Below, piece by piece: positions 6,612 to 20,394 of a stretch of 64,000 nt of DNA (position 1 is its first letter; each line of letters opens with the position of its first letter). The notes under the pieces were generated by a model. It saw nothing but the letters and a program-made list of their open reading frames with translations, was not told the origin of the DNA and ran no database searches. Origin of the DNA: Bradyrhizobium sp. NAS80.1 (GTDB taxonomy: Bacteria; Pseudomonadota; Alphaproteobacteria; Rhizobiales; Xanthobacteraceae); assembly GCF_001908205.1 (NCBI RefSeq), contig NZ_LGHL01000005.1, positions 1 through 64,000 on the forward strand. The letters are read 5' to 3'. Made by a program: the position numbers and the translations under genes.

Positions 6612-7184
6612 ATGTCTGCCGCTGCGCCTAAGTCTGCTGAGTCGCCGTCCCTCGAACCGTCCTGCCGCGATACTGCGGCCCATGCGCTGACCATCGTGCG
6701 CGACGGCGTGATCACGGGCGAAGGTCCCACCACAAAGGGCCGGGTGCATTTCTCCCGCTCGCTCGACGCCGATGATGCCGCCTGGTGCGTGCGCATCCTG
6801 ACGGCCACAGCCGTTAACGACCAGCCGGTCAGCCGCGCCGAAGCCGAGGCGCTGTTCGAGATCAACGAGGCCGCGACCGAGCGTACCGACGGCGGCCGGT
6901 TCGACGATCTGCTCGCCAAGGCGGTTGCCCACTATGCCGCAAGCGCCTCAGGCCTGAAGGTGCCGCCGCGCAGCGTCGCGTTGTCGGCCGAGTCCGACGT
7001 CGACAGCTGGGCGCCGTCCTACGCCTCCAAGGTCAACAGCGAGATGCTGGAGTGGATCGCGGGCCAGATGCGCGGCAAGCGCCAGACCAACCGTCGCCTC
7101 ATGGCGATGGTGGCGACCTTCCTGGGCGCCACCGCGCTGCCTCTGGCAGGCCAACTGCCGAACGTGTTCGACATCGGCATGTAA
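6612..7184 (+). CDS. Conserved hypothetical protein
   Basis: A 190-residue protein without signal peptide at its N-terminus. It is moderately acidic, with SRAEAEALFEINEAA and DLLAKAVAHYAASASG suggesting helices that resemble TerB-like bundles (weak). A single hydrophobic segment lies near the C-terminus (LMAMVATFLGATALPLAG), so it may be tail-anchored. Codon use matches neighbouring genes. A strong terminator follows at 7206. No function can be assigned. Confidence 0.65.
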   Translation: MSAAAPKSAESPSLEPSCRDTAAHALTIVRDGVITGEGPTTKGRVHFSRSLDADDAAWCVRILTATAVNDQPVSRAEAEALFEINEAATERTDGGRFDDLLAKAVAHYAASASGLKVPPRSVALSAESDVDSWAPSYASKVNSEMLEWIAGQMRGKRQTNRRLMAMVATFLGATALPLAGQLPNVFDIGM

Positions 7185-7205
7185 GATTTTGGTACTTGAG
7201 ATTTT

Positions 7206-7261
7206 CGCGCCCCTTGCGGGGCGCGAGAGAAAGCGGCGGGGTCACTTCCCCGCCGTTTTTT
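7206..7261 (+). terminator. Double-hairpin terminator
   Basis: The first hairpin has stem CGCGCCCC/GGGGCGCG (7206-7225). The second has stem CGGCGGGG/CCCCGCCG (7234-7255) followed by six T. It ends the gene at 6612. The second stem overlaps the stop codon of the converging gene at 7242. Confidence 0.85.
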
Positions 7262-9095
7262 GTTTGCCGGTCTCGGTCTCGAGTCCGAGCGTGCGGCCGG
7301 GGAAGCCGGCGGCGTCGAAATAGCGCTGGGTGCCGACGCGCTGGACGTTGAGCACGGTCTGCAGGCCGTTCTCGGACATCTTCGACTTCTCGACAGTCTT
7401 GAACGCCTTCGGCACGATGCCGTTGGGCAGGGCCTCCGACATCACCCGGCCGAGCAGGCCGCCGTTCTGTGAGCCGCGCAGGCCCATGAGCTGGACAGCC
7501 GTCATGCCGACGTCAGCATTGCTGACCGGCAGCTCGTCGACGAAGCCAGCTTTGAAGTCCGGTCCGATCGCGGCCATGAAGTTGAACGTGTCGCCCCGGC
7601 TGAAGCTGCCATGCATGCCCTGGCCCTGGCGCAGCACCGTGTCGGCCACCTGCACCGAGCAATTGGTCGGCGCCTCGCCGCACTCGCTGGCATAGGAGCG
7701 GAAGTTGACGACGATCGCCGGCGTCGGCGTCGCAGACTTGCCACGCAGGTTGATGCTCGACAGCGGCAGGGTGCCGGGGAAGCGGCCGAGCGAGTCGTCG
7801 ACGAACAGACCGGAGATGTAATCCTGCTCGAGCAGCGCCTTGACGGTCTTCGCCGCCAGCTTCTTGTCCCTGTTCGGCAGATAGATCAGGTCCGAGCCGC
7901 CGTTGGTGGCGATGACGAGGTCAGGCTTGGTCGGATCCTCGCCGAGCACGCCGTTGCCGGCCTTCGGGTGGGCATTGCCGGTGACGGCGGCATTCTTGTC
8001 GTTCGGGTCGAACAGTGGCAGGTCGAGCGCTTTCGCAAGGTCGAGCGCCAGGAAGCCCATCGGCAGGAAGTCCTTCGGCGTGTCGTCATAGCTGACCTTG
8101 GCCGAGGGGCTGGTCTTGCTTTCCTTGGAGATGGTCGAGAAGCCGTGGTCGGCCTGGATCATGATGTTGGTGTTGGCGGCGAGCCCGAGCTCGTCCAGCG
8201 CCTTGCGGATCTGCGCAAGGTTGTTGTCGGCGTTCTTGATGCTCGCCATCGTGCTCGGGCCGTTGATGCCCGGCATGATCTGGTTGAGGCTGTCGCCCTG
8301 ATTGTGCTGGGTGCCATCGGGATCGCGCGACCAGAACACCAGCACGAACGGCTTGTTGCGTGCCTTGAACATCGGCAGCACGACCTTGGTGGCGACGTCG
8401 GCGAGATAGGCCTGCTGGGCGACGTTGGCGACCGTGGTGCCCGGCGTCTTGGCATCGCCCGCCTTGCCATTGTCGCCGCGGCCGGGGGTGGCAAGGGCGA
8501 GACCCGCCTTGATCAGGGCTTCCTTCATCTCGTCCGATAGCGCCACGCCGTTCTTGCCGCCGGTGGAATCGTCGATCACGATCGAATGGTTGCCCGGCTT
8601 CTCGGGATGATCGGTATGGTCGAACTGATAGGTCGGGCCGACCTTGCCGATCGCCGCGGTGCTGAGGCCCTTGTCACGGGCCATCTTCAGGATGGTCTCT
8701 TCGCTCAGAAAGTCGCCCTTGAAATGCTCGTCGATGTCGCCGAGCACGGCGTCGTTCTCGATGAAGGGGACCACCGTGTCGCCGGCCGGTACGGAGGTGT
8801 AGTTGGTCCAGATCGTATTGGAGAACACGCCGGTGTCGCCGAGATAATGGCCCGTCGAGATCGCCGAGCCGTTGGCCATGGTGAAGGTCGGAAACAGCGA
8901 GTGCGAGTTCTTGAAGTTGACGCCCTTGTCGCGGACTTCGGCCATCGCCGGCGCCGTTTCAGGGGTGACTTTCAGCGCGCGCAGTCCGTCCGGAATGAAC
9001 AGGATCAGGTTACGGGGCGTGTTGTTCTGGGCAAAGGCAAGTCCGGTAGACAGCACGGTCAATCCGGCGGACAGCAACACCAGTGAGCGGCGCAT
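7242..9095 (-). CDS. Alkaline phosphatase-like / type I phosphodiesterase, secreted
   Basis: A 617-residue exported hydrolase of the alkaline phosphatase superfamily (nucleotide pyrophosphatase/phosphodiesterase branch). After the signal peptide (MRRSLVLLSAGLTVLSTGLA) come the first metal site LILFIPDGLR, the nucleophile region FPTFTMANGSAISTGH and the metal-binding DHGFS. It would cleave a phosphate mono- or diester in the periplasm. The start at 9095 has an AGGAGAG site; the 17-codon upstream extension lacks one. Its 3' end overlaps a terminator shared with the convergent gene. Confidence 0.85.
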   Translation of the reverse strand: MRRSLVLLSAGLTVLSTGLAFAQNNTPRNLILFIPDGLRALKVTPETAPAMAEVRDKGVNFKNSHSLFPTFTMANGSAISTGHYLGDTGVFSNTIWTNYTSVPAGDTVVPFIENDAVLGDIDEHFKGDFLSEETILKMARDKGLSTAAIGKVGPTYQFDHTDHPEKPGNHSIVIDDSTGGKNGVALSDEMKEALIKAGLALATPGRGDNGKAGDAKTPGTTVANVAQQAYLADVATKVVLPMFKARNKPFVLVFWSRDPDGTQHNQGDSLNQIMPGINGPSTMASIKNADNNLAQIRKALDELGLAANTNIMIQADHGFSTISKESKTSPSAKVSYDDTPKDFLPMGFLALDLAKALDLPLFDPNDKNAAVTGNAHPKAGNGVLGEDPTKPDLVIATNGGSDLIYLPNRDKKLAAKTVKALLEQDYISGLFVDDSLGRFPGTLPLSSINLRGKSATPTPAIVVNFRSYASECGEAPTNCSVQVADTVLRQGQGMHGSFSRGDTFNFMAAIGPDFKAGFVDELPVSNADVGMTAVQLMGLRGSQNGGLLGRVMSEALPNGIVPKAFKTVEKSKMSENGLQTVLNVQRVGTQRYFDAAGFPGRTLGLETETGKQKTAGK

Positions 9096-9395
9096 CAAAT
9101 CTCTCCTGCGGTGAGGCGGCATGGCCGCGACCGCGGCCTCCGGCAATCGTTTAGTTTTGCAGCATGACAGTTTTGTTACAAGGCCCGTCGGCTATGCAAC
9201 AGAGATGGGAGAGGGTGGGGACGATAGGGTCACAGTCTCATTATCGAGCACCAACGAGGCGCAATTGGCGCACGATGACCGGCGGAGCCGCCCGACTATC
9301 TATGACAAATTCCGAATTCAAACAGAATAACGTTGGGTCTCCCCGGGACTTGGATGCCTCGCCTGGCCGGCAATGCAAGCCACGTGAGCCGGCGC
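9096..9395. other. Intergenic region, no gene seen
   Basis: About 300 bases between the phosphodiesterase start and the small LuxR gene. It presumably holds the promoter of the former. Short ORFs here lack ribosome sites and family features. Confidence 0.45.
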
Positions 9396-9707
9396 TCATT
9401 TCGGCGCGATCTCCACCCGTGGATTCTGAGCCAGCGCCTGCGCTGGTTTCACCGCGACGGGATAGCCTCCGCCGTTGGCGAGATCGCGCCGCAGCGATGG
9501 CGTCGCCGCATGCAGCGCGAAGATAATCGCGATCTGAGTCCGGTTCTGGAGTCGGTATTTGCGCATGATATTGCCGATATGCGCGCGCACCGTGTTCTCC
9601 GAGATCTTGAGCTCGAAGGCGATGTTCTTGTTCTGCATTCCGCGCGCGATCAGCACCATCAGCTGGCGTTCACGTGGCGTTGGTGTAATCGAAGTTTCCG
9701 GGCTCAT
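9396..9707 (-). CDS. Small LuxR/GerE-type DNA-binding protein
   Basis: A 103-residue protein that is essentially one LuxR-type helix-turn-helix (PTPRERQLMVLIARGM, then NIAFELKISENTVRAHIGNI). There is no receiver or autoinducer domain. The start at 9707 follows a near-perfect GAGGAGG site, so the longer frame overlapping the permease gene is not used. It lies 53 bases after the MacB-like permease gene on the same strand and may be the last gene of that operon, or control the downstream curlin region (inference). Confidence 0.85.
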   Translation of the reverse strand: MSPETSITPTPRERQLMVLIARGMQNKNIAFELKISENTVRAHIGNIMRKYRLQNRTQIAIIFALHAATPSLRRDLANGGGYPVAVKPAQALAQNPRVEIAPK

Positions 9708-9760
9708 GACTAGTTCCTCCTCCCTGGCCGTTGAGTTGATGTGGCCATCCCAGCATGCTG

Positions 9761-10984
9761 TCATTCCGTCTTGAGCGCCTCGATTGGACTGAGCTTGGAC
9801 GCCTTGTGTGCAGGATAGAAACCGAAGATGAGGCCGGTCACGATCGAGAAGACCAGGGCCAGGGCAATTGCTTCGCTGTCGACTGACGTGATCCATCCGG
9901 CCATGCGGGCGACTGTCATCGACAGCGTGACCCCACCGACAACGCCGATGGCGCCGCCGAGGAGGCAGAGTACAAGCGCTTCGCAGAGGAACTGGAGACG
10001 GATGTCCCGCATCCGCCCACCGAGCGCCCGGCGAATTCCAATTTCCTGCGTTCGTTCTGTGACCGACACGATCATGACGTTCATGATGCTGATGCCGCCG
10101 ACGAGCAGCGAGACCGACGCGATAGCGACGAGCAGGAGCGCCACGGTGCGGATTGCTCCCTGCTGCGCTTCCATGGCCGCCGCCGGATCCTGGACCTTGA
10201 AATCGTCTTCCTGGCCGGCGAGGACCCGGTGACGCTGCCGCAGCAGGCTTTCGATCTCGGATCGCGCACCCGCCATTTGGCCGTCGGCGGCCACCTTGGC
10301 GACGATGTAGGCGACCGAGTCCCGGTTGATGCCGCTCGCGCTGCCGAGGAAGCGCAGCTTGGCGGTGGCGAGGGGGACGAACGCGACGTCGTCCTGCGCC
10401 GGCCCCTTGCGGTCGAGCACGCCAATCACCTCAAGCGGGACCTTCATGATCCTGATCTGTGCGCCGATCGGATCGTCGCCCGGTGCGAACAGCTCGCGCG
10501 CGACCGTACTTCCGAGGATCGCGACCTTGCCGGCGCCAGCTTCCTCGGCGCCGGAGAAATAGCGCCCAGAGGCGAGCTGCCAGTCGCGCGCCATGAAGTG
10601 CCCGGTCGTCGTGCCGTTGATCGTCGTGTTCCAGTTCTTGCTCTCGTGGATGACCTGCGCCGTTCCGGCGATCGAGCCGGCCGCGGCTTGAATCTCCGGA
10701 ATCTGCTCGAGGATGGCCTGCACGTCGCTCTCGGTCATGGTGAGCTTGGTGCCTTCCTTAAGGCGGACGCCGCCCTGATAGACTGCGCCGGGCGTGATCA
10801 TCAGCACGTTGGCGCCGATCGAGCGGATCTGCTCCTGGAGGCGAAGCTGTGCGCCGGCGCCGATCGCGAAGACGGTGACAATCGATGCGACGCCGATGAC
10901 GATGCCGAGCATTGTGAGGACACTGCGCAGCGGGTTGAGGCGCAAGGCGTGCAGAGCGATCTGGAAGCCCTGGAGCATCGTCAT
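9761..10984 (-). CDS. MacB-like ABC transporter permease
   Basis: A 407-residue inner-membrane permease of the MacB/FtsX type. It has an N-terminal helix (LNPLRSVLTMLGIVIGVASIV), a large periplasmic MacB_PCD domain of about 220 residues and three C-terminal helices (FtsX domain, with TQEIGIRRALGGR before the second). No ATPase domain is attached, so it needs a separate ATPase. That gene is the one damaged upstream (10981-11979), with which it overlaps by 4 bases, so the transporter is probably non-functional as sequenced. Confidence 0.9.
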   Translation of the reverse strand: MTMLQGFQIALHALRLNPLRSVLTMLGIVIGVASIVTVFAIGAGAQLRLQEQIRSIGANVLMITPGAVYQGGVRLKEGTKLTMTESDVQAILEQIPEIQAAAGSIAGTAQVIHESKNWNTTINGTTTGHFMARDWQLASGRYFSGAEEAGAGKVAILGSTVARELFAPGDDPIGAQIRIMKVPLEVIGVLDRKGPAQDDVAFVPLATAKLRFLGSASGINRDSVAYIVAKVAADGQMAGARSEIESLLRQRHRVLAGQEDDFKVQDPAAAMEAQQGAIRTVALLLVAIASVSLLVGGISIMNVMIVSVTERTQEIGIRRALGGRMRDIRLQFLCEALVLCLLGGAIGVVGGVTLSMTVARMAGWITSVDSEAIALALVFSIVTGLIFGFYPAHKASKLSPIEALKTE

Positions 10985-11979
10985 GATGCAAAGCTCCGTT
11001 TCGGCAGCAGCGGAGCCCGCGCCTCGTCGCTGACGATCTCTCCGTCATGCAGGCGGATCGTGCGACGGCACTGGGTCGCGATGCCGGGATCATGGGTGAT
11101 CATCACGACGGTCTGGCCGCGCTGGTTGAGCGCGGCGAACAGCGCCAGGATCTCGGCGCCGGTGCGACTGTCCAGCGCGCCCGTCGGCTCGTCGGCGAGC
11201 ACGATCAACGGGGAGGCGATCAGAGCACGTGCGATCGCAATGCGCTGCTGCTCGATCCTGCGGACGTCGGCCTGCGCGCCGTCCACGGAATAGGCATTGA
11301 GGGACACCATCACCTCAGCCTCGCGCTCCTGGGCGACGTGGGCGGTAAATTCCGTCTGAGCATCATCGACGGTCGACGTCGCCACCACATTTTGCGACTG
11401 CAGTGCGAGCTTGCGCTGAAGGGTCTTCTGCGCCGAGGCCTTGACCGCCTGGGCGCTCTCGAGCTTGGCGGCAAGCACGTCGCGGCTGCCCTTTGCGTTC
11501 TGCAGATCGATCCTGGCGCGATCGAGCTTGGCCCGCTCGATATCCACGAGGGAGTTGGCGACTTCGAGCGCCGCCTTGGCCTCGTCGACCTTGGCCGCGA
11601 AGCTGCGTGGATCGATCAGCGCGAGCGGCTGGTCCTTGCTGACGGTGTCATTGAAATCGACATAGACCCGCGCAAGCTGCCCGGACAATTGGGAACCCAC
11701 CTCGATCGTCTTGACCGGTTGCAGGGCACCCGTGACGGTCACGGTCTGCTCGATGCTGCCGCGCTGTATCGAGGCGTAGCGAAAGGCAGGTGCGTCCGAC
11801 TCGAAGATTGGGGCTTCGCGTGCACCGGGTGCGAGGAGCTGTTTTGTCGACTCGGAGGCGCGTGTGACCCCGGCAGCCGCAGTTCCGGCCGCGCCGGTGA
11901 TAGTGGCCGATCCCGCGGTGTAGACCGCGGCGAGGCCGCATGCAGTTCCAAATAAGGCAATAACTGGCGCAAATCGCAT
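10981..11979 (-). pseudogene. Chimera of MacA-like adaptor and ABC ATPase C-terminus
   Basis: A 332-residue ORF made of two unrelated halves. The first about 240 residues are a periplasmic adaptor (HlyD/MacA): N-terminal membrane helix, lipoyl half (VGSQLSGQLARVYVDF) and a long coiled coil. At about 11253 it passes in frame into the end of an ABC ATPase: QQRIAIARALI, Walker B LIVLADEPTGALD and the switch ITHD. Walker A, the Q-loop, most of the LSGGQ signature and the adaptor's C-terminal beta barrel are absent. An in-frame deletion between macA-like and macB-like genes explains this. The start at 11979 (MRFAPVIALFG) is preferred. Confidence 0.85.
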
Positions 11980-12472
11980 ATCAAGACCCCCGCCCTTGAA
12001 ATGACCTTGCTGGCGGAAAAAACTGGAATCGAGAGATGGCTGCAATTAGCCCGAAGCGATCCCGGTGTCTCAGCAGTATGTCGTCGTTCTTAAGGCGACG
12101 GGCGGGCGCGCTCTATGATCCAGAAGTAAAGTCCGCGACTGCGCCTTTTCGTGATTTGCGCAGAACCCATACCGGGCGTATTCAAATGGATCAGCACGGT
12201 ATCGAACTCGATAGCTGACTGAACGTCTCGTCTGATCTGGCGGAAGTAGTGGCCGGTCGGTGTTTAGTTTGGCGTAAGGGTGGCAACACCGTGACACAGT
12301 TGGCCATACCAGTGGCTCGACGCCGGAGTGGCGCATCCTCGAGATTGCGGCACCGAAGGAGGCCACGAGCCCCTTCGATCACGAACTCCGAAATGTTAAC
12401 TGCTTCACTCGTATCCACCGGGCGATAGCTCGTTGCCGGATCATCGAGCCCCTATTCGGGGAGTTAGCTGCG
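11980..12472. other. Intergenic region, no gene seen
   Basis: About 490 bases between two divergent genes. It must hold promoters for the efflux operon and for the FixJ-like regulator. Short frames here do not look coding. A small GC hairpin (CCCC-TATT-CGGGG) lies just before the regulator start. Confidence 0.45.
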
Positions 12473-13144
12473 ATGAATTCAAACCAAGCCGCAGTTTCAA
12501 ACCAAGCGACAGTTTATGTCGTTGATGACGAAGCCCAGATTCGAAATGCGATTGGCAGCCTCTGCGAGGAGACCGGACATCAGGTCAGGTTGTTTGCCTC
12601 AACGGACGAGTTTCTTGCCGAAAGTCTAGCTAGCGGACCATCCTGCCTGGTGCTCGACGTCCGCTTTCCCGGCACGTCGCCGACCGGCCTCGAGCTTCAG
12701 CGCAAGCTGGCGGAGTCGGGCGTGCAGATACCGATCGTCTTCATCAGCGGCCACGCGGACGTGCGCGTCTCGGTCGAGGCCATGAAGCGCGGGGCGGTCG
12801 AGTTTCTGCCGAAACCATTCCGCGAGCAGGAGATCCTCGATGCGATCAGGCACGGCATCGAGCGCGATCGCCGGCGCCTGGAGCGCGAGAGTGCGGAGCA
12901 CGAAGCGCGCCAGCGCGTCCAGACGCTGACGGCACGGGAGCGCGAGATCATGCTGCTGATGGCGGAGGGGCTCGTTGCCAAGCAGATCGCGGCCAAGCTC
13001 GGCGTCAGCGAAGTGACGGTGAAGGTGCACCGCGCCAGAATGATGCGGAAGCTGGGGTTGCGTTCGCCGATTGAGGTTGTGCGATTGATCGACAGCATGG
13101 GACTCGAGGCGGAGCGCTTCGGTGCTGGACATTCGCAGATCTAG
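12473..13144 (+). CDS. FixJ/NarL-type response regulator
   Basis: A 223-residue two-domain regulator. The receiver (residues 14-125) has the acidic pair VVDDE, phospho-acceptor Asp62 in LVLDVRFP and the conserved Lys in LPKPF. The LuxR-type HTH (about 150-215) has LTAREREIMLLMAEG and VSEVTVKVHRARMMRKL. No kinase is adjacent. It is followed on the same strand by five small secreted proteins, four with curlin repeats, so it is a good candidate for a CsgD-like regulator of that locus (inference). GGGGAG precedes the ATG. Confidence 0.9.
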   Translation: MNSNQAAVSNQATVYVVDDEAQIRNAIGSLCEETGHQVRLFASTDEFLAESLASGPSCLVLDVRFPGTSPTGLELQRKLAESGVQIPIVFISGHADVRVSVEAMKRGAVEFLPKPFREQEILDAIRHGIERDRRRLERESAEHEARQRVQTLTAREREIMLLMAEGLVAKQIAAKLGVSEVTVKVHRARMMRKLGLRSPIEVVRLIDSMGLEAERFGAGHSQI

Positions 13145-13174
13145 ATTTGCGGACGGCAAGTTATCGCGCGTCGT

Positions 13175-13192
13175 CTAGTCCGGATCGACTAG
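13175..13192. promoter_or_regulatory. Palindrome between regulator and curlin genes
   Basis: Perfect inverted repeat CTAGTC-CGGATC-GACTAG, 31 bases after the regulator stop and 120 bases before the first curlin gene. There is no T-run, so an operator is more likely than a terminator; the FixJ-like regulator is the obvious candidate binder. Confidence 0.4.
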
Positions 13193-13312
13193 CATGAACT
13201 ACAGTCTGTCGCATCGCATGAGATCAGTTCAGAGCCATCCCTATGATGTCGGCCAGCATCACGACCGGCATCCGAACCCAGTCAGACAACTTTGGCTAGA
13301 AAGGGATACTCC

Positions 13313-13705
13313 ATGCGAAAATTGCTCCTCGCTTCCGCTGCCGTGTTCGCTCTGTCCTCCGCGGCTCACGCTAATAACACCGCAAACACCTTCCAGATCG
13401 GCGCAGTAAACGCCTCCGCCGTGAACCAGCAGGGCCACGTGAACGACTCTTCGACCACCTTCCAGCTCGGCCTCGTGAATGCCGCGAGCACCATGCAGGG
13501 CACGACCTCTCCGTCGCTCAACAATGCGAGCTCGGTGACCCAGATTGGCGTCTTTGGCAACGCGGCCGCCACTGGAGAGGTTGCCACTGGCAACAACGCC
13601 AGCTCGATCAGCCAGACCACGCTCTTCGGCCTCCCGCCGAACAACGCCGCCGCCGTTGGGCAGATCGGTGGTGGACTCAACACCAGCACCATTACTCAGC
13701 ACTAA
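13313..13705 (+). CDS. Curlin-repeat secreted protein A
   Basis: A 130-residue exported protein with a signal peptide (MRKLLLASAAVFALSSAAHA). The mature part is Asn/Gln/Ala/Ser-rich, with imperfect repeats of the curlin type, Q-x-G-x-x-N spaced about 20-25 residues (TFQIGAVNASAVNQQG, TFQLGLVNAAS, VTQIGVFGN, VGQIGGGLN). Cysteine is absent. This is the composition of CsgA/CsgB amyloid subunits secreted to the cell surface. First of five consecutive small secreted-protein genes; it pairs best with the next gene. Confidence 0.85.
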   Translation: MRKLLLASAAVFALSSAAHANNTANTFQIGAVNASAVNQQGHVNDSSTTFQLGLVNAASTMQGTTSPSLNNASSVTQIGVFGNAAATGEVATGNNASSISQTTLFGLPPNNAAAVGQIGGGLNTSTITQH

Positions 13706-13846
13706 GCCAGCCCCGTATCGGGCCCGGGCGCGTCCACCGAGCGGCGCGTCCGGACGATACTCGACAGGCCATACTCGAAATCACCGCGATCAGGTTGCCT
13801 GAGCGGGGCGGCGGGTCGACGGCTGGCATTTCGCAGAGGATATGAC

Positions 13847-14239
13847 ATGCGCATGAAACACCTCTTCACGACGGTCGTCATGCTGAGCGCGCTGACCGCT
13901 GTCGAGGCCCAAGCTGCCAACTCGGTTAGCGTGTTGCAGATCGGTACGACAAATCTCTCGTCCACAGTGCAGGCCGGCCCGGTGAACAACACCGCGACGA
14001 CGCTGCAATTCGGCGCGACCAACACCGCATCGAGTTTGCAGTTGGGATCGCTGGCCTCGGTCAATTCGGCCACGATAGGGCAGGGCGGCACGACCCCCAC
14101 CGCGACTAATAACGCCGCGGTCGGCCAGGTCGGCGGCGCCAACACGAGCTTGATCGGTCAGATTGGTTTGAACAATGCTGCGGGGGTGTCCCAGTTCGGC
14201 ATTCTGAACGGCTCCATGATTTTGCAGCAGGCTCCGTGA
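13847..14239 (+). CDS. Curlin-repeat secreted protein B
   Basis: A 130-residue exported protein. Signal peptide MRMKHLFTTVVMLSALTAV...QAA, then at least five curlin-like units (VLQIGTTN, TLQFGATN, LQLGSLASVN, VGQVGGANTSLIGQIGLNN, SQFGILN). It is the same length as gene A and shares with it the block Q-x-G-x-V-N-x(3)-TT-x-Q-x-G, so A and B look like duplicates. It ends in a Gln-rich ILQQAP. Probable amyloid fibre subunit; which gene nucleates and which is the major subunit cannot be told. Confidence 0.85.
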   Translation: MRMKHLFTTVVMLSALTAVEAQAANSVSVLQIGTTNLSSTVQAGPVNNTATTLQFGATNTASSLQLGSLASVNSATIGQGGTTPTATNNAAVGQVGGANTSLIGQIGLNNAAGVSQFGILNGSMILQQAP

Positions 14240-14282
14240 CCTGAGATCGTGTTTGGCTCGGCAGATAGTGTGGAGGCATGTG

Positions 14283-14693
14283 ATGAACAAGCATCTTCTG
14301 ATCGGTGCGCTGGCAGGTCTCGTCTCCTGTTGCGCAGCGAACGGCCCGGCGCAGGCGCAAAGCGCCGACATCAAGACGATCGTCTCGATTAACGGGCCGC
14401 CAGTCGTCTTGAACCAGAGCAGTTCGACCAATATGGCCGGCGTGTTCATGATCGGCGGTAGCACCAGCGCGACTGTCACTCAGAACGGCACGAATAACGC
14501 TGTCGGCATCCTGCAATTCGGCGGGACGACATCGGCTTCTGCCGGGCAGACCGGCATGAATAATTTCGCCTTCGTCGGTCAGACCGGCCAGTCGGCGACG
14601 AGCTTCGTGTCGCAGATCGGCGCGATGAATACGGGATCGATCGCGCACTTCGGCAGGGTCAACTCGTCGACAGTGGTCCAGACTAGCCCGTAA
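14283..14693 (+). CDS. Curlin-repeat secreted protein C
   Basis: A 136-residue exported protein (MNKHLLIGALAGLVSCCAAN signal, cleavage near AQA). The first 30 mature residues lack repeats. Then come curlin units: TVTQNGTNNAVGILQFGG, AGQTGMNNFAFVGQTG, VSQIGAMNTGSIAHFGRVN. Its layout, including the QIG-x-MNTG and FGR-x-N end, is shared with gene D, so C and D form a second paralogous pair. GGAGG stands before the ATG at 14283. A Cys-Cys in the signal region is not a typical lipobox. Confidence 0.85.
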   Translation: MNKHLLIGALAGLVSCCAANGPAQAQSADIKTIVSINGPPVVLNQSSSTNMAGVFMIGGSTSATVTQNGTNNAVGILQFGGTTSASAGQTGMNNFAFVGQTGQSATSFVSQIGAMNTGSIAHFGRVNSSTVVQTSP

Positions 14694-14741
14694 GGTAAAC
14701 GCGGGCTCGCCTCGGTCAGGAACCGGCAAGGAGGAAAGGCG

Positions 14742-15248
14742 ATGAGGTTGAGGTACGGTAAGCAGCTATTGGCGCTGTCCGCGTTGCTCGTCGCCATCAG
14801 CGTTGCGTCCGATGCATCGGCCGGATCCAGGCCATCGCGATTCGCCGGATTCCAAGGCGGCGGACTCATGCAAGGCGGTGTCACGGACCCGAGCGTGAGC
14901 ATCGAGGTGAGCATCGAGACAGTCGTGGAGTTCGGCAACAATGCGAAGCCGGTCACGATCGTGGAGAACAGCAGCATCAATATCGCTCGGGTGATCCAGT
15001 TCGGCGGGACGGGAACTGTCGATGCGACCATTGTCCAGAACGGCACACGCAACTATGTCGATGTGATCCAGGTCGGTGGCACCACCAACGCGGCGATCGG
15101 CCAGTCCGGCGTGAACAACATCGCCGACATCACGCAGGTCGGCAATTCCACTAACGCGCTCCTGCTCCAGATTGGTGACATGAACACGGGGACGGTGCAG
15201 CAGTTCGGGCGGTTCAACTGGTTGTCGATCTTCCAATTCGGGCGGTAG
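14742..15248 (+). CDS. Curlin-repeat secreted protein D
   Basis: A 168-residue exported protein, the longest of the set. A signal peptide ends near ASA. A non-repeat stretch of about 50 residues (FQGGGLMQGGVTDPSVSIEV) precedes four or five curlin units: VIQFGGTGTVDATIVQNGTRN, VIQVGGTTNAAIGQSGVNN, ITQVGNSTNALLLQIGDMN, VQQFGRFN. The protein ends IFQFGR. It starts 45 bases after gene C behind AGGAGG. Probable fibre subunit and paralogue of C. Confidence 0.85.
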   Translation: MRLRYGKQLLALSALLVAISVASDASAGSRPSRFAGFQGGGLMQGGVTDPSVSIEVSIETVVEFGNNAKPVTIVENSSINIARVIQFGGTGTVDATIVQNGTRNYVDVIQVGGTTNAAIGQSGVNNIADITQVGNSTNALLLQIGDMNTGTVQQFGRFNWLSIFQFGR

Positions 15249-15268
15249 TCGAGAAGGTGAGGTGTGAG

Positions 15269-15559
15269 ATGAGGTTCACCATACTCGCGGCAGGAATGGT
15301 CATCATGGCAGCAATAACAGCCGGACCGGCCGGCGCCGGCGAGACCGGCGACGGCCATACCACCGTGGTCCAGGACGAGAACGGCACGGCCGTCATCACG
15401 CAAAGTGGTGATCCGGCACAGGCCGAGGTCAGGGTCGACAAGGAGCCCGGACGCACGACGGTCTACCGTCGTAGCGATGGAAACACCGCGATCGTATCCC
15501 AGGGCACGGGAAACGCGCAGGACTTGCTCGATTGGCTGCGCAAGCAGCAGCCCCACTGA
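15269..15559 (+). CDS. Small secreted protein closing the curlin cluster
   Basis: A 96-residue exported protein that starts 20 bases after gene D, so it is almost surely cotranscribed. A signal peptide (MRFTILAAGMVIMAAITAG) is followed by a charged mature part. Only one or two degenerate curlin-like units are visible (VVQDENGTAVITQSGD, NTAIVSQGTGNA), with a helical end LLDWLRKQQPH. It may be a minor subunit, a nucleator anchor or a CsgC/CsgE-like accessory factor; none of these is shown by sequence. Confidence 0.7.
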   Translation: MRFTILAAGMVIMAAITAGPAGAGETGDGHTTVVQDENGTAVITQSGDPAQAEVRVDKEPGRTTVYRRSDGNTAIVSQGTGNAQDLLDWLRKQQPH

Positions 15560-15856
15560 CGTACCGAGCCCATCGTCGGTGAGAGAACGACGGGCCTGGT
15601 TGCAAGCGGGCGCTACGGGAGCGTTCCGGACGTGTTCGGCTCGCGCGATCAACTCCGGTCAACTGGTTATGAAACAGCGGTCCATTGAACGAAGTGCTTG
15701 AAACCAGCCGGGAATTCCAGACGTCATGCCGCACCACGCTCCCCGTCGATCCCGCGCCTTAACCAATAATTAATTATCCGTTTGCCGGCGGGTTACGGCC
15801 CGGCTTAGCGTGCAATGGGGAGCCGCTATCGCGAAGCCAATGAGTTGGTGCGTATC
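15560..15856. other. Intergenic region, no gene seen
   Basis: About 300 bases after the curlin cluster. A short AT-rich patch (CCAATAATTAATTATCC, 15762-15778) probably belongs to the promoter of the next gene. Nothing else recognised. Confidence 0.4.
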
Positions 15857-16303
15857 ATGATGTCCAGATCACATGGGGCGTTGCTCGCCTCACTCAGCGC
15901 AACTGCGCTGCTCCTTGTTGCCAGTGACAGTTTTGCCAGGCCCGGTGGCGCGGCCGCGCATGGGCTGACCGCCGCGCCTTCCCGCGCGGTCGCGCGTCCG
16001 CCGATCGCGCCGGGTGCTCGGTTCCGCGGCCGTAACAATCCCTGGGTCTATTGGCCGGGCGGAGGAGCGTTCTTCTACGATGGCACGACCTACAGCCAGC
16101 CTTTCATCGATGCAGGGCAGCCGTTCTCCAACGACGAGCGCTACGCCTACTCGTATGACGTTCCCTGGGACTGGACGCATCGCTTCCCGCCGAACGTCGT
16201 GCCGTCCGACCGGCCCTATGTGCCGAGCTGCCCGACCGAGCAGGTGACGGTGCCCGGCCGCGGCGGCGGCGAGCACACCGTCAATATCATGCGCTGTTAC
16301 TGA
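15857..16303 (+). CDS. Secreted protein of unknown function
   Basis: A 148-residue exported protein. Its signal peptide includes LLASLSATALLLVASDSFA. The mature part is Pro/Gly/Tyr-rich (NNPWVYWPGGGAFFYDG), has two cysteines (PSCPTEQVTVPGRGGGEHTV and the final MRCY) and no repeats. The start is uncertain: 15857, 15860 or an upstream in-frame codon at 15815. It follows the curlin cluster on the same strand after 297 bases, so a link is possible but not supported by spacing. Confidence 0.65.
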   Translation: MMSRSHGALLASLSATALLLVASDSFARPGGAAAHGLTAAPSRAVARPPIAPGARFRGRNNPWVYWPGGGAFFYDGTTYSQPFIDAGQPFSNDERYAYSYDVPWDWTHRFPPNVVPSDRPYVPSCPTEQVTVPGRGGGEHTVNIMRCY

Positions 16304-16315
16304 GCGGCGCCGTCG

Positions 16316-16421
16316 CTAGAGCGTTTTCGAGCGAAGTGGATACCGGTTCGCGTAAAGAAAACGCGTCAAACCAAGAATCTAGAGCCCCGTTCCGATTCCA
16401 TCGGAACGGAAATGGCTCTAG
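16316..16421 (+). repeat. Intergenic palindromic repeat element, copy 1
   Basis: The first half contains GCGTTTTCGAGCGAAGTGG and TACCGGTTCGCG. The second half is a hairpin, AGAGCCCCGTTCCGAT with an imperfect complement before GGCTCTAG. About 100 bases match, in opposite orientation, the element at 21445-21545. It abuts the stop of the acetyltransferase gene. Elements of this type are dispersed in Bradyrhizobiaceae intergenic regions. Confidence 0.85.
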
Positions 16422-17260
16422 CCGAGCTCAAAGCTTGTCACGCCGAAGACGCGGTCGATCCGTGGCGGCTTGATCGGCCCTGTGTACATCCGCGCCGTCT
16501 CGAACACCGGCTTGAGGCCGAGCGACTCTGCGACCGCAACCGCCTCGCGATTGACGGCGGGGACGTCGAGAAAGACTTCGCTGCCACCTGCACTTTCCAG
16601 CAGGGCCTGCACAACGGCGTCCGCCGCCGCGCGATCGTCGGCGACGAGCGGGCCGATCTTGTGGCCGGTCCGGCAAGGCCGGATGACGCCCCATGCGGCG
16701 AGCTTACCATCGCGCAGCAGCGCGCGGCCGATATGGCCGGCCGTATTGAACCAGGCGCGCAGGAAGGGGCTACGCGCTGCAGGGAAGACCGTGGCGTCGT
16801 CGGCTTCAACAAGCGCGAATGGAATGTCGTTGATTGCTAGAACATCAGCGGGTGGCTTCGGCGGCGGCGCGACGATGCCGCCATAGCGGATATTCGCGTA
16901 AGCAAACTGGAAGCCGGATTTCCTGTAATTGTCCTGCTGTGCCACGACGCCGTCGAGCCCGATTACGCGAGCGCCCGCATGCGCGATCGCCGCGTTCCAG
17001 ATGCGCAGGCCGTAGCCCGAGCCACGAAGATCCGCACGCACGATGTAGAAGCCAAGGAAGGCGAAGCGATCATCGTAATTGACGCAGGAGACGGTCGCGA
17101 CCGGCTCGCCGTCGATCTCGCCAACGAAGAAGCCCTCCGCGTCGGGAAGCGCGAAGCAGGCGGCATCCGCAAGACCCGGATTCCAGCCTTCTGCCGCGGC
17201 CCAGTCGACGGCAATGGCGACCTCCTCGGGGCGCAAATTGCGGATTTGCAAATCGCTCAT
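16418..17260 (-). CDS. GNAT family N-acetyltransferase
   Basis: A 280-residue cytoplasmic enzyme. The N-terminal GNAT domain (residues 1-130) starts SDLQIRNLRPEEVAIAVDWA and has the acetyl-CoA loop RADLRGSGYGLRIW. A C-terminal domain of about 120 residues follows (Acetyltransf_18-like, containing GPLVADDRAAADAVV). Such two-part GNATs act on small molecules; the substrate is unknown. An ATG at 17260 is used; 17272 would add four residues. Its stop lies in the repeat element at 16316-16421. Confidence 0.85.
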   Translation of the reverse strand: MSDLQIRNLRPEEVAIAVDWAAAEGWNPGLADAACFALPDAEGFFVGEIDGEPVATVSCVNYDDRFAFLGFYIVRADLRGSGYGLRIWNAAIAHAGARVIGLDGVVAQQDNYRKSGFQFAYANIRYGGIVAPPPKPPADVLAINDIPFALVEADDATVFPAARSPFLRAWFNTAGHIGRALLRDGKLAAWGVIRPCRTGHKIGPLVADDRAAADAVVQALLESAGGSEVFLDVPAVNREAVAVAESLGLKPVFETARMYTGPIKPPRIDRVFGVTSFELG

Positions 17261-17373
17261 CTTACAAGTCACTCATGGATGCCTTCGACAGTGGACCTGC
17301 CGGCCGGTCCGGCTGTAGAAGGCCTCATGATAGGCCGAGCCTGCGGCTCGCCTCAACACAGGGATGATCGGTC

Positions 17374-18078
17374 ATGGCAGCAGAGAAGGTCGCACTCGTC
17401 ACCGCGGGCGGCAGCGGCATGGGGGCAGGGGCTGCGCGGCGGCTCGCGGCCGACGGATTTCGCGTTGCGATCCTGTCGTCCTCTGGCAAGGGCGAGGCGC
17501 TGGCGGCCGAGCTCGGCGGGATCGGTGTCACCGGCTCCAACAAGTCGAACGACGATCTGAAGCGTCTCGTCGACGGCGCGCTTGCCAAGTGGGGCCGCAT
17601 CGACGCGCTCGTCAACAGCGCTGGCCACGGCCCGCGCGCGCCGATCACGGAGATCACCGACGAGCAGTGGCACACCGGCCTCGATACCTATCTGCTCAAC
17701 GTGATCCGTCCGACGCGGCTGGTGACACCGGTCATGCAGGCGCAGAAGGCTGGCGCCATCGTCAACATCTCGACCGCCTGGGCGTTCGAGCCGAGCGCAA
17801 TGTTTCCGACCTCCGCGGTGTTCCGCGCTGGTCTTGCCGCTTTCACAAAGATCTTCACCGACACCTATGCCGCCGACAATATCCGGATGAACAATGTTCT
17901 GCCCGGCTGGATCGACAGCCTGCCGCAGACCGATGCGCGCCGCGACAGCGTGCCGATGAAGCGCTACGGCAAGGTCGAGGAGATCGCGGCGACGATCTCG
18001 TTCCTGGCCTCCGACGGCGCAGCCTACATCACGGGGCAAAACATCCGCGTCGACGGCGGGCTGACGCGGTCGGTCTGA
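17374..18078 (+). CDS. SDR family protein with altered active site
   Basis: A 234-residue short-chain dehydrogenase-like protein. The Rossmann motif TAGGSGMGAGAARRLA, the NSAGHGPRAP segment and the end-of-fold ITGQNIRVDGGLTRSV are normal. The Ser of the triad is present in VNISTAWAFEP. The YxxxK pair is not: the aligned stretch reads SAVFRAGLAAFTK, giving Ser and Arg in place of Tyr and Lys. It may bind nucleotide but use another mechanism, or be regulatory (inference). Single gene, divergent from the GNAT gene. Confidence 0.85.
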   Translation: MAAEKVALVTAGGSGMGAGAARRLAADGFRVAILSSSGKGEALAAELGGIGVTGSNKSNDDLKRLVDGALAKWGRIDALVNSAGHGPRAPITEITDEQWHTGLDTYLLNVIRPTRLVTPVMQAQKAGAIVNISTAWAFEPSAMFPTSAVFRAGLAAFTKIFTDTYAADNIRMNNVLPGWIDSLPQTDARRDSVPMKRYGKVEEIAATISFLASDGAAYITGQNIRVDGGLTRSV

Positions 18079-18168
18079 GCAGGCCGTTTCGAATCGGGGG
18101 GCGCATGTGACGCGGGCTTGCGCGCGTCACTGCATGAGGGCAACGCGCAGCCCTTGGGGGCACAAGGT

Positions 18169-19449
18169 TCAGAGCGAAGCCGCGAGCCGCGACAGCGCCG
18201 GCAGGATCCTATAACGGACGATCTCGTGCGGATATTCGCTGCGATTGGCGAGCAGGACGATGCCGATCTGTCGCGCCGGGACGAGGCCGAGATAGCCGGA
18301 GGCGTTGTTGAGGCCGCCCGGCTTGTCGACGATGGTGACGCCGGGAAGGTGCACATTCTCCCAGGCCATGGCCTCGCCGAATCTATCGTCGATGCGGAAG
18401 GCCTCGCGCTGCGTTATTCGCAGTGCATCGCGCAAATGCGGGTCGATCGACCGGCCGTCGGCGCAGGCCGACACGAAAGTCGCGAGGTCCCGCGCTGAGG
18501 AGAACATCTGGCCAGTCCCGGGGAAGTCAAAGTAGCTCTGCTGGTTGCCGGGCTGCCCGATCGCCTCTCCCTGATACGAATACCCTTGCACGACGCGCTG
18601 CATCCACGCCGCATCCATGACAGCGCGGTCGTCTTCACCGCGCTCGGGGACGCAGGTCGCATTCATGCCGAGCGGCCTGAGGATGCGCTGCTCGAACAGC
18701 GTTGCGATCGGGGCGCCGTAACATCGCTCGAGCACGAGCTGAAGCAGCACGTAGCAGGCATGGCTGTAAACGCGCTGCTTGCCGGGAACTTCGCCGGCCT
18801 GTGGCTTCCAGGCGTTGAACATGTCGATAAACTGCGCCCGCGTGTATGAGTTGTCCGGCCAGGGCGGATGGTCGGTCGACAGCAGCATGCCCGACGTGTG
18901 CGTGGCGAGCTGGCCGACGGTGACGCGGTGGACATAGTCGCCGGTGAGCTCGGGCAGATACTTTGACAGGCGGTCGTCGAGCCGCAGCTCGCCGCGAAGC
19001 GTGCCGAGCGCGACCAGCGTCGCCTCGAAGGGCTTTCGCAGGGAGCCGAGGTTGAACAGCGTATCCGATGTGACTGGCCTGCGTGTGGTGTCGTCGGCAA
19101 AGCCATAGTTGAAGAACTCGACAACGCCGCCGGCACAAAGCGCGGCAGCGACGCCGCCCGGCTGGTCTGGCGTCACGGTGGGCGCCAGCTCACTGGCGAC
19201 GATGTCGCGCATCTCCGCGATCATGTCAGAATCCGCGAATGCACGACGCGACCCGCCAAGCGCGATCGCAAGAGGAACGAGCGCTGCCCGGGCGAGGGCC
19301 CGGCGGGTGAGATGAAATGAGGTGACAGTAGACGGCACGGCTCTGGCGAATGATGTGATGTGCCCCCGAATCTCTTTTAACGGGGAGGGAGACGCCCCCC
19401 AATTCACGATTGCGCGTTGTGGGTTCCGCTGGTGGTTGCCCTGCGACAA
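18169..19449 (-). CDS. Secreted serine hydrolase (beta-lactamase/class C family)
   Basis: Up to 426 residues from a TTG at 19449; a GTG at 19335 would give 388 and place the twin-Arg signal (LTRRALARAALVPLAIALG) near the N-terminus, which is more likely. Numbering from 19449, the catalytic Ser-x-x-Lys is SLRK at 136-139, the Tyr motif is YSH at 228-230, and DKPGG near residue 383 replaces KTG. These are esterase or D-aminopeptidase-like variants of the penicillin-binding fold, so beta-lactam hydrolysis should not be assumed. It faces away from the ArsR operon. Confidence 0.85.
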   Translation of the reverse strand: MSQGNHQRNPQRAIVNWGASPSPLKEIRGHITSFARAVPSTVTSFHLTRRALARAALVPLAIALGGSRRAFADSDMIAEMRDIVASELAPTVTPDQPGGVAAALCAGGVVEFFNYGFADDTTRRPVTSDTLFNLGSLRKPFEATLVALGTLRGELRLDDRLSKYLPELTGDYVHRVTVGQLATHTSGMLLSTDHPPWPDNSYTRAQFIDMFNAWKPQAGEVPGKQRVYSHACYVLLQLVLERCYGAPIATLFEQRILRPLGMNATCVPERGEDDRAVMDAAWMQRVVQGYSYQGEAIGQPGNQQSYFDFPGTGQMFSSARDLATFVSACADGRSIDPHLRDALRITQREAFRIDDRFGEAMAWENVHLPGVTIVDKPGGLNNASGYLGLVPARQIGIVLLANRSEYPHEIVRYRILPALSRLAASL

Positions 19450-19455
19450 AATTAC

Positions 19456-19522
19456 TTAGCTGTTGAGCTAACTATTGTTGACGCCGGGCGATGGCGACTC
19501 TATAGTTAGCTTCATGGCTAAC
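19456..19522 (+). promoter_or_regulatory. Sigma-70 promoter with two operator palindromes for arsR-type gene
   Basis: TTGACG (19478-19483), a 17-base spacer and TATAGT (19501-19506) form a near-consensus promoter. One palindrome, TTAGCT-GTTG-AGCTAA (19456-19471), lies just upstream. Another, GTTAGC-TTCATG-GCTAAC (19505-19522), overlaps the -10 end, the expected start point and the ATG at 19514. The expected transcription start is within a base or two of the ATG, so the mRNA is probably leaderless. Confidence 0.75.
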
Positions 19523-19903
19523 CAATTATCCCAGCTCGACCAGGTTTTCGCAGCCCTTGCCGATCCCACCCGGCGGGCGATCGTGATGCGGCTCTGCGCC
19601 GGCGAGGCCTCGGTCGGCGAGCTCGCAGACCCCTTCGACATGGCGCTGCCGAGCTTCATGAAACATATCCACGTACTGGAGACGAGCGGGCTCGTTCAGT
19701 CGGAAAAATCCGGCCGCGTGCGCACCTGCCGCCTCGGCCCGGACGCGCTTGTCGGCGCGGAGTACTGGTTCCAGCAGCAGCGCGCGATCTGGGAATCGCG
19801 GCTCGACCGGTTCGAAGCCTACGTGATGAAGCTCAAGAGAGAGAAGGAGAGGGCCGCCGCCAAGCGGCCGTCCCGCACAACCAAAAGGAAAGGTACTGAG
19901 TGA
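19514..19903 (+). CDS. ArsR family transcriptional regulator
   Basis: A 129-residue winged-helix repressor. LDQVFAALADPTRRAIVMRL opens the domain and PSFMKHIHVLETSGLVQSEK is the recognition helix and wing. It has no metal-binding ELCVCDL motif, and belongs to the subgroup that sits before SRPBCC genes. The C-terminus is a basic helix (KLKREKERAAAKRPSR). It overlaps the next gene by one base and has palindromic operators at its own promoter, pointing to autoregulation. Confidence 0.9.
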   Translation: MANQLSQLDQVFAALADPTRRAIVMRLCAGEASVGELADPFDMALPSFMKHIHVLETSGLVQSEKSGRVRTCRLGPDALVGAEYWFQQQRAIWESRLDRFEAYVMKLKREKERAAAKRPSRTTKRKGTE

Positions 19904-20394
19904 TGACGAATTCTGCCAATGCTGCCCTGTCGCAATGGTCGCTCGACCGCGAGATCGTGATGTCGCGCGTGATCGACGCGCCGCGCGATCTGGTGTTCGA
20001 GGCGTGGTCCGACCCAAAGCATCTGCCGCAATGGTTCGGGCCGAAAGGTTTCAAGATCGAGACCTTCGAGATGGACGTGCGCGTCGGCGGCGTCTGGCGC
20101 TTCAACATGATCAGCCCCGACGGCACCGTCTATCCGAACCGCATGCGCTTCCGTCGCATCGAGCGGCCAAAGCTGATGGAGATGGACCACGGCGTCGACC
20201 AGGACGAGGATCCCGGAATGTTCCGCTTCACCGTCACCTTTGCCGAGCAGAGCAATGGCAAGACGGTGCTAATGATGCGGCAACTGACCTCGAGCACTGA
20301 GCAGCGCGATGGCATGATCGGCTTCGGCGCCGTTGAATACGGCTATCAGACGCTGGACAAGCTCGCGGCGTATGTGGGCGGGATGAAGAAATAA
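19903..20394 (+). CDS. SRPBCC (AHSA1-like) domain protein
   Basis: A 163-residue single-domain protein of the START/Bet v1-like fold. VIDAPRDLVFEAWSDPKHLP and FGPKGFKIETFEMDVRVGG are typical. It is cotranscribed with the ArsR repressor (stop/start overlap). Such pairs are widespread; the SRPBCC partner is thought to bind a hydrophobic ligand. Start ATG 19903; a GTG at 19900 is possible. Confidence 0.88.
   Translation: MTNSANAALSQWSLDREIVMSRVIDAPRDLVFEAWSDPKHLPQWFGPKGFKIETFEMDVRVGGVWRFNMISPDGTVYPNRMRFRRIERPKLMEMDHGVDQDEDPGMFRFTVTFAEQSNGKTVLMMRQLTSSTEQRDGMIGFGAVEYGYQTLDKLAAYVGGMKK

Follow-up and report, generated by a model that had tools for sequence, protein, structure and literature searches.

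The window, a stretch of 64,000 nucleotides comprising positions 1 to 64,000 of contig NZ_LGHL01000005.1 of the soil bacterium Bradyrhizobium sp. NAS80.1, carries a locus for curlin-type fibre proteins in which a response regulator gene (RR) is followed on the same strand by five genes for small proteins, O1 to O5 (Table 1). All six open reading frames (ORFs) exist at 12473-15559, in the order and on the strand given by a first-pass annotation, which took the regulator and five subunits to be the whole locus. That boundary proved too narrow: upstream of RR, on the opposite strand and unmentioned in the annotation, lie genes for a MacA/MacB-type transporter and a small LuxR-type protein, LuxRs. 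In relatives these genes form a ten-gene cassette with divergent arms, consisting of LuxRs, a MacB permease, a MacB ATPase, MacA, RR, and O1 to O5.

Table 1. Features of the curlin locus and its surroundings (positions in the window).
Feature	Coordinates	Strand	Description
LuxRs	9396-9707	-	Small orphan DNA-binding protein of GerE/LuxR type at the end of the left arm; Pfam GerE 64.4 bits; longest ORF extends to 9896
MacB-type permease	9761-10984	-	407 amino acids, intact in the window; MacB_PCD and FtsX domains; best PDB matches MacB, E 1.7e-62
Broken MacA/MacB ATPase ORF	10981-12045	-	N-terminal part of MacA and C-terminal part of ATPase, 354 amino acids
RR	12473-13144	+	Response regulator, receiver and GerE domains (Pfam 78.9 and 68.3 bits), FixJ/TtrR-like
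Palindrome CTAGTC-N6-GACTAG	13175-13192	.	Upstream of O1; candidate RR operator
O1	13313-13705	+	Curlin-like protein, exported-type N-terminus, weak repeats
O2	13847-14239	+	Curlin-repeat protein; PF07012 41.2 bits
O3	14283-14693	+	Curlin-repeat protein leaning to CsgB, related to type-2 autotransporter passenger; PF07012 37.3 bits
O4	14742-15248	+	Curlin-repeat protein; PF07012 47.3 bits; PDB 8c50, E 2.4e-21
O5	15257-15559	+	Small protein whose uncatalogued family is a marker of CsgG-less curlin genomes
w162	15815-16303		162 amino acids; N-terminus exported-looking by eye; no Pfam match

The exported character attributed to O1 to O5 fits the N-termini of all five, each of which begins with a charged and then a hydrophobic stretch and an AxA-type site, as judged by a simple hydropathy rule rather than a dedicated signal-peptide predictor. 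QxGxxN-like repeats are likewise present in four of the five (three in O1, six in O2, three in O3, five in O4, and none in O5); among 5000 composition shuffles the observed count was reached by 1.1% for O1, 0.7% for O3, none for O2 or O4, and 100% for O5. The Pfam curlin repeat model (Curlin_rpt, PF07012; cut-off 20.7 bits) is exceeded by O2, O3, and O4 and missed by O1 (11.8 bits) and O5 (10.6 bits). In profile comparisons O1 matches O2 (98.6%, E 5e-16), and the O5 profile has no tie to those of O1 to O4 (at most 8.8%). O3 scores 39.1 bits against the CsgB model, far below the cut-off of 165, and its profile matches the passengers of the type-2 autotransporters described below (E 1e-12 to 2e-16). 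The curli subunit structure matched by O4, 8c50, is CsgA R15.5 of Pontibacter korlensis (PMC10192328). For O4, AlphaFold2 (AF2) predicts a beta-stranded repeat with strands within residues 56-166, at modest confidence (pLDDT 61.8); VIA-align places this model closest to E. coli CsgA (8enq), with a Z score of 12.8, but at a root-mean-square deviation of 7.9 over 105 residues, and fold families missing from the VIA-align results are not thereby ruled out.

The case that the subunits are curli-like is strong; by analogy, they would form a fibre. The gaps between their genes are short (141, 43, 48, and 8 bases), so a single transcript is plausible. The annotation had also counted more subunits than in csgBAC; this stands for four curlin-like proteins, not for O5, which is no curlin by any test, and extra subunits have precedent in the up to six csgA/B homologues that Dueholm 2012 (PMC3521004) describes for some genera.

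A genome-wide search of the window strain (assembly of 9.2 Mb, rated 100% complete) gave no CsgG match, extending what had been noted for the neighbourhood; CsgE and CsgF are lacking among the Pfam-scanned neighbours, and no genome-wide search for these two was made. Among 146 Bradyrhizobium genomes, curlin repeats occur in 52 and CsgG in seven, all within the 52, leaving 45 CsgG-less curlin genomes. A survey of 397 genomes of the order found curlins in 83 and CsgG in 40 (both in 31, curlins alone in 52), so CsgG-less curlins are common there. On a wider scale, Sleutel 2023 (PMC10192328) counts 1033 of 43279 genomes with CsgA as having no CsgG, and alternative proteins must, according to Dueholm 2012 (PMC3521004), export curlins in such cells.

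The MacA gene of the left arm tracks these CsgG-less curlins closely. Its orthologues (E below 1e-100) occur in exactly 41 of the 146 genomes, all of them CsgG-less curlin genomes with no CsgG match (0 of 41), and in none of the other 105; the next matches lie at 3e-27, once ATPase pieces of cassette loci are set aside. The 41 are the 45 CsgG-less curlin genomes minus three that have only a type-2 locus and one, G145, with a cassette remnant. In 41 of 41, MacA and O5 share a contig, at a distance of 3.3-4.3 kb. All ten genes were found in 19 of 20 loci of the genus survey and in 8 of 8 loci from named GTDB contigs; the 27 rows from relatives represent 26 distinct loci (L146 is identical to part of L063), or 28 rows and 27 distinct loci with the window. 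Typical products in relatives are a MacB permease of about 407, an ATPase of about 241, and a MacA of about 475 amino acids, and LuxRs is part of all 27 rows from relatives (26 distinct loci). No frame is broken in 24 of the 26 distinct relative loci, and each of the other two has one damaged gene; a claim that all ten genes are intact in every relative is thus ruled out by a frameshifted permease in L052 and by O4 of L050 (G066; L050:9118-9400), which is broken by mutation or sequencing error. Bradyrhizobium sp. AS23.2 and B. centrolobii are examples of strains in which the cassette is intact. One full cassette, L142, comes from a record titled Frankia sp. RB7, which is a Bradyrhizobium-type contig and probably mislabelled.

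The boundaries of the cassette are evident from genomes that lack it. Of 20 cassette-less genomes inspected at the syntenic flank, 13 have a phosphodiesterase gene (PDE) and w162 as neighbours, at a distance of 0.4-4.1 kb and without any cassette gene in the interval; w162, found beside occupied and empty sites alike, therefore belongs to the flank and LuxRs to the cassette. Its presence at empty sites, together with the lack of a Pfam match, rules out w162 as a sixth subunit. The remaining seven comprise g6612, the flanking gene one further out, with w162 (L162), the right flank alone (L164), three contig edges, and two non-syntenic sites. G017 has the whole cassette with none of the five usual flanking genes within 19.5 kb. 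G145 retains O5, half of O4, the permease end, and LuxRs, and has lost most of the permease, the ATPase, MacA, RR, O1 to O3, and the other half of O4, apparently in one deletion that took pump and subunits together. On a 39-tip tree of flanking proteins (G145 scored as present, nine loci short of flanking genes dropped, and the duplicate L146 omitted) there are about 11 presence/absence changes, against a shuffle mean of 11.7 and minimum of 8; the tree shows patchiness and does not separate loss from recombination. Loss or exchange of the entire cassette is frequent, and the case is strong that the ten genes are one unit, inherited or lacking as a block between fixed flanks.

Median pairwise ratios of nonsynonymous to synonymous substitution rates (dN/dS), by a simple Nei-Gojobori method in which one of 28 rows of the O4 set was wrong (L050, where O3 was used) and L063 and L146 are identical, point to purifying selection on all ten genes: permease 0.06, MacA 0.12, ATPase 0.14, RR 0.16, O5 0.18, O4 0.20, LuxRs 0.24, O2 0.28, O3 0.30, and O1 0.41. 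By these medians, most fibre subunits evolve faster than the pump genes.

The O5 family occurs in 45 of 45 CsgG-less curlin genomes of the genus, in none of the seven with CsgG, and in none of the 94 without curlins. Outside the cassette, the O5 profile was found only in type-2 loci (nine copies in six loci), with no match in nine loci from CsgG genomes, in 20 csgH-type loci from outside the genus, or in the 20 cassette-less flanks. A CsgH profile built here gathered 28 ORFs and has the complementary distribution: it matches an ORF among the curlins in 20 of 20 csgH-type loci and in seven of the nine loci from CsgG genomes, the two negatives being extra contigs of G098, and finds none in cassette loci at E 10 and none in type-2 loci (CsgC itself was not searched). 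The 20 csgH-type loci consist of 19 from other families, drawn from the 52 curlin-only genomes, and one from G242, a genome with a weak match to CsgG. O5 and CsgH profiles are unrelated (2.3% probability), and O5 has no Pfam or PDB relative; with its PF07012 score, repeat count, and profile comparisons, O5 has no support as either a CsgH or a curlin. Its AF2 model (pLDDT 45.6) is too poor for use. The distribution of the family suggests, by analogy, that O5 may be a stand-in for CsgH, acting as chaperone or cap.

The FixJ-like label given to the regulator stands in that the FixJ model is the nearest and both receiver and GerE domains are present, and falls short in the score, 175.6 bits against a cut-off of 255. 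Its LVLD(V/I)R and LPKPF motifs are kept in 28 of 28 rows. The contrast drawn with classical csgD is weaker than claimed, as CsgD is itself a LuxR/FixJ-type protein. A kinase was correctly reported as lacking: none was seen within the cassette or among the Pfam-scanned neighbours at 6612-20394. In the gap between RR and O1, a palindrome of the form CTARTC-N6-GAYTAG occurs in all 28 rows (27 distinct), the displaced G017 cassette among them, differing from the window form by zero to two mismatches and always with a six-base spacer; it is a candidate binding site of the response regulator. Between the palindrome and O1 there is a second, imperfect and partly conserved inverted repeat, GATGTCGG (13245-13252) and CCGGCATC (13265-13272), which could be a leader hairpin.

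The window strain itself departs from its relatives in the left arm. Its MacA/ATPase ORF is the product of an 1150-bp deletion with a junction at about 11251-11254, as measured on its nearest relative, L140 (Bradyrhizobium sp. AS23.2, identity about 93-94%), that removed the last part of MacA together with the first part of the ATPase, Walker A included; the deleted piece is on no other contig of the assembly. Among cassette genomes the fusion is confined to the window genome, and since relatives have two separate intact genes it is ruled out as a conserved new transporter. MacA and the ATPase are intact in 26 of 26 distinct relative loci and the permease in 25 of 26, and Walker A, LSGG, and Walker B are present in 27 of 27 ATPase rows; in the window the permease alone is intact. 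The pump has been lost from this strain, or else the assembly is in error at MacA/ATPase. If the assembly is right this is a natural pump-less strain, in which there is probably no fibre export by a MacAB route unless another MacA and ATPase substitute.

Curlins of the known system are exported by Sec. In the scheme that we infer from gene content, the response regulator would turn on O1 to O5, probably via the palindrome before O1, and the five proteins would pass the inner membrane by Sec; O5 would serve as a periplasmic partner that prevents subunit assembly or caps subunits, a job done elsewhere by CsgC or CsgH; MacA and the split MacB (ATPase and permease) would expel the unfolded subunits from the periplasm by way of a TolC-type channel whose gene lies outside the cassette; and outside the cell O3 or O4 would initiate a beta-solenoid fibre that the others build. 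The MacAB step would thus be the analogue of the one performed elsewhere by CsgG, for passage through which curlins must remain unfolded (PMC10192328). MacB, as described in PMC5985334, takes substrates from the periplasm and drives them out via TolC rather than moving them through the inner membrane; the enterotoxin STII, once Sec has brought it to the periplasm, is exported by MacAB-TolC, and the 10-kDa dispersin by a MacB-based pump (PMC5985334).

That the locus is a curli-like fibre cassette in which a MacAB-type pump replaces CsgG and O5 replaces CsgH, a reading to which the link is genetic, has a probability just short of even; that MacAB exports the cassette curlins is itself about an even call. 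Several results weigh against this reading. In the window strain the pump is broken while O1 to O5 are intact, and in L052 (G078) the permease (L052:3735-4954) has a frameshift at residue 222/223, by mutation or sequencing error. The cassette contains no TolC gene; six TolC/OEP-family loci exceed the cut-off in the genome of the window strain. The TolC-binding motif of the MacA hairpin is R-L-S, and in the displayed rows R is kept, L is mostly kept, and A stands in place of S. Foldseek returned nothing significant for the O4 model, with E. coli CsgA (8enq) at E 0.65. MacA and MacB are both absent from 20 of 20 csgH-type loci outside the genus (flanks up to about 10 kb per side), so some other CsgG-free route must exist, and MacAB is unsupported as an order-wide replacement for CsgG. 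Finally, joint inheritance of neighbouring genes does not require that they interact, as recombination in the flanks moves blocks regardless of function.

The strongest rival, less probable than a curlin-exporting pump yet a serious contender, takes the cassette as real and assigns MacAB another task, clearing an antimicrobial peptide or reporting envelope stress, with the curlins a co-regulated surface response that uses another channel or stays periplasmic. Efflux of drugs and peptides is a known role of MacAB pumps (PMC5985334), the 20 csgH-type loci have no such pump nearby, type-2 loci use an autotransporter fusion, and two strains retain curlins next to a damaged pump. It accounts less readily for the 41-of-41 co-occurrence and the block loss, for the absence of any genome among the 146 with cassette MacA and no curlins, and for the restriction of CsgG-less curlin genomes without cassette MacA to the three type-2-only genomes and the G145 remnant. 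Unlikely, and concerning the window strain alone, is that its locus is a relic in which the MacA/ATPase deletion ended export and O1 to O5 await loss: the missing piece is nowhere else in the assembly and cassettes come and go on the flank tree, but O1 to O5, the regulator, and the permease are intact and little changed relative to L140, the deletion may be an assembly error, and this reading does not extend to the 40 other cassette genomes. Ordinary curli with an overlooked CsgG, for which the 532 contigs of the window assembly speak, is very improbable and close to refuted, since CsgG is absent from all 45 such genomes, several of them a single contig, and the same search finds it in seven genus mates and four controls; the absence is therefore general in the lineage, not one assembly's gap.

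The cassette shares with E. coli curli (csgBAC/csgDEFG) and other CsgG-type curli its curlin-repeat subunits with exported-type N-termini and a LuxR-type regulator, and differs in having MacAB and O5 in a genome without CsgG and a cassette without a CsgH-type protein. It resembles the CsgG-less csgA-csgH-csgB loci of Alphaproteobacteria, of the CsgH-containing kind described by Dueholm 2012 (PMC3521004) and among the 'CsgA orphans' of Sleutel 2023 (PMC10192328), in having curlins without CsgG; the 20 such loci compared here have CsgH and, within the flanks covered, no MacAB, whereas in the cassette O5 and MacAB are present and CsgH is not. With two E. coli pumps, MacAB-TolC (STII) and the MacB-based exporter of dispersin, it shares MacA, a MacB-type ABC transporter, and small exported proteins as putative substrates; unlike E. 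coli MacAB, it has one gene for the ATPase and another for the permease, stands next to curlins, and includes no outer-membrane gene. For the exit of curlins from cells without CsgG, the cassette offers candidates for exporter and chaperone, each of which could be knocked out on its own, and its patchy presence in close relatives provides natural controls. The cassette suggests a second way of placing curli-like fibres outside the cell; if true, amyloid subunits would be exported by an energised pump, not a diffusive pore, in plant-root bacteria.

A further arrangement occurs in the type-2 loci, six of which (L064-L069) were found in five of the 146 genomes (G066, G047, G059, G071, and G117), none with CsgG; two of the five also have the MacAB cassette and three have the type-2 locus only. 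Each locus combines small curlins of two kinds with an O5-family protein and a curlin-autotransporter fusion of 474-494 amino acids, which is O3-like in its N-terminal part and has a C-terminal autotransporter barrel, scoring 133-138 bits against PF03797 in the two fusions scanned. Type-2 loci are thus like the cassette in lacking CsgG and in having the O5 family and O3-like repeats, and differ in that the outer-membrane step is presumably through the autotransporter barrel. Neither a curlin-autotransporter fusion nor a pairing of MacAB with curlins was seen among the best-ranked literature matches to which the search was limited. It is a tentative proposal, and a somewhat doubtful one, that Bradyrhizobium has two CsgG-free fibre routes, a MacAB pump for Sec-exported curlins and a curlin on an autotransporter barrel, sharing O5 as a new chaperone or cap family in place of CsgC/CsgH. 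In G066, G047, and one G059 locus the curlins and the O5-family gene are duplicated around the fusion, and near a type-2 locus of G059 an ORF (L066:17071-19239) looks, on visual inspection, like a peptidase-containing ABC transporter.

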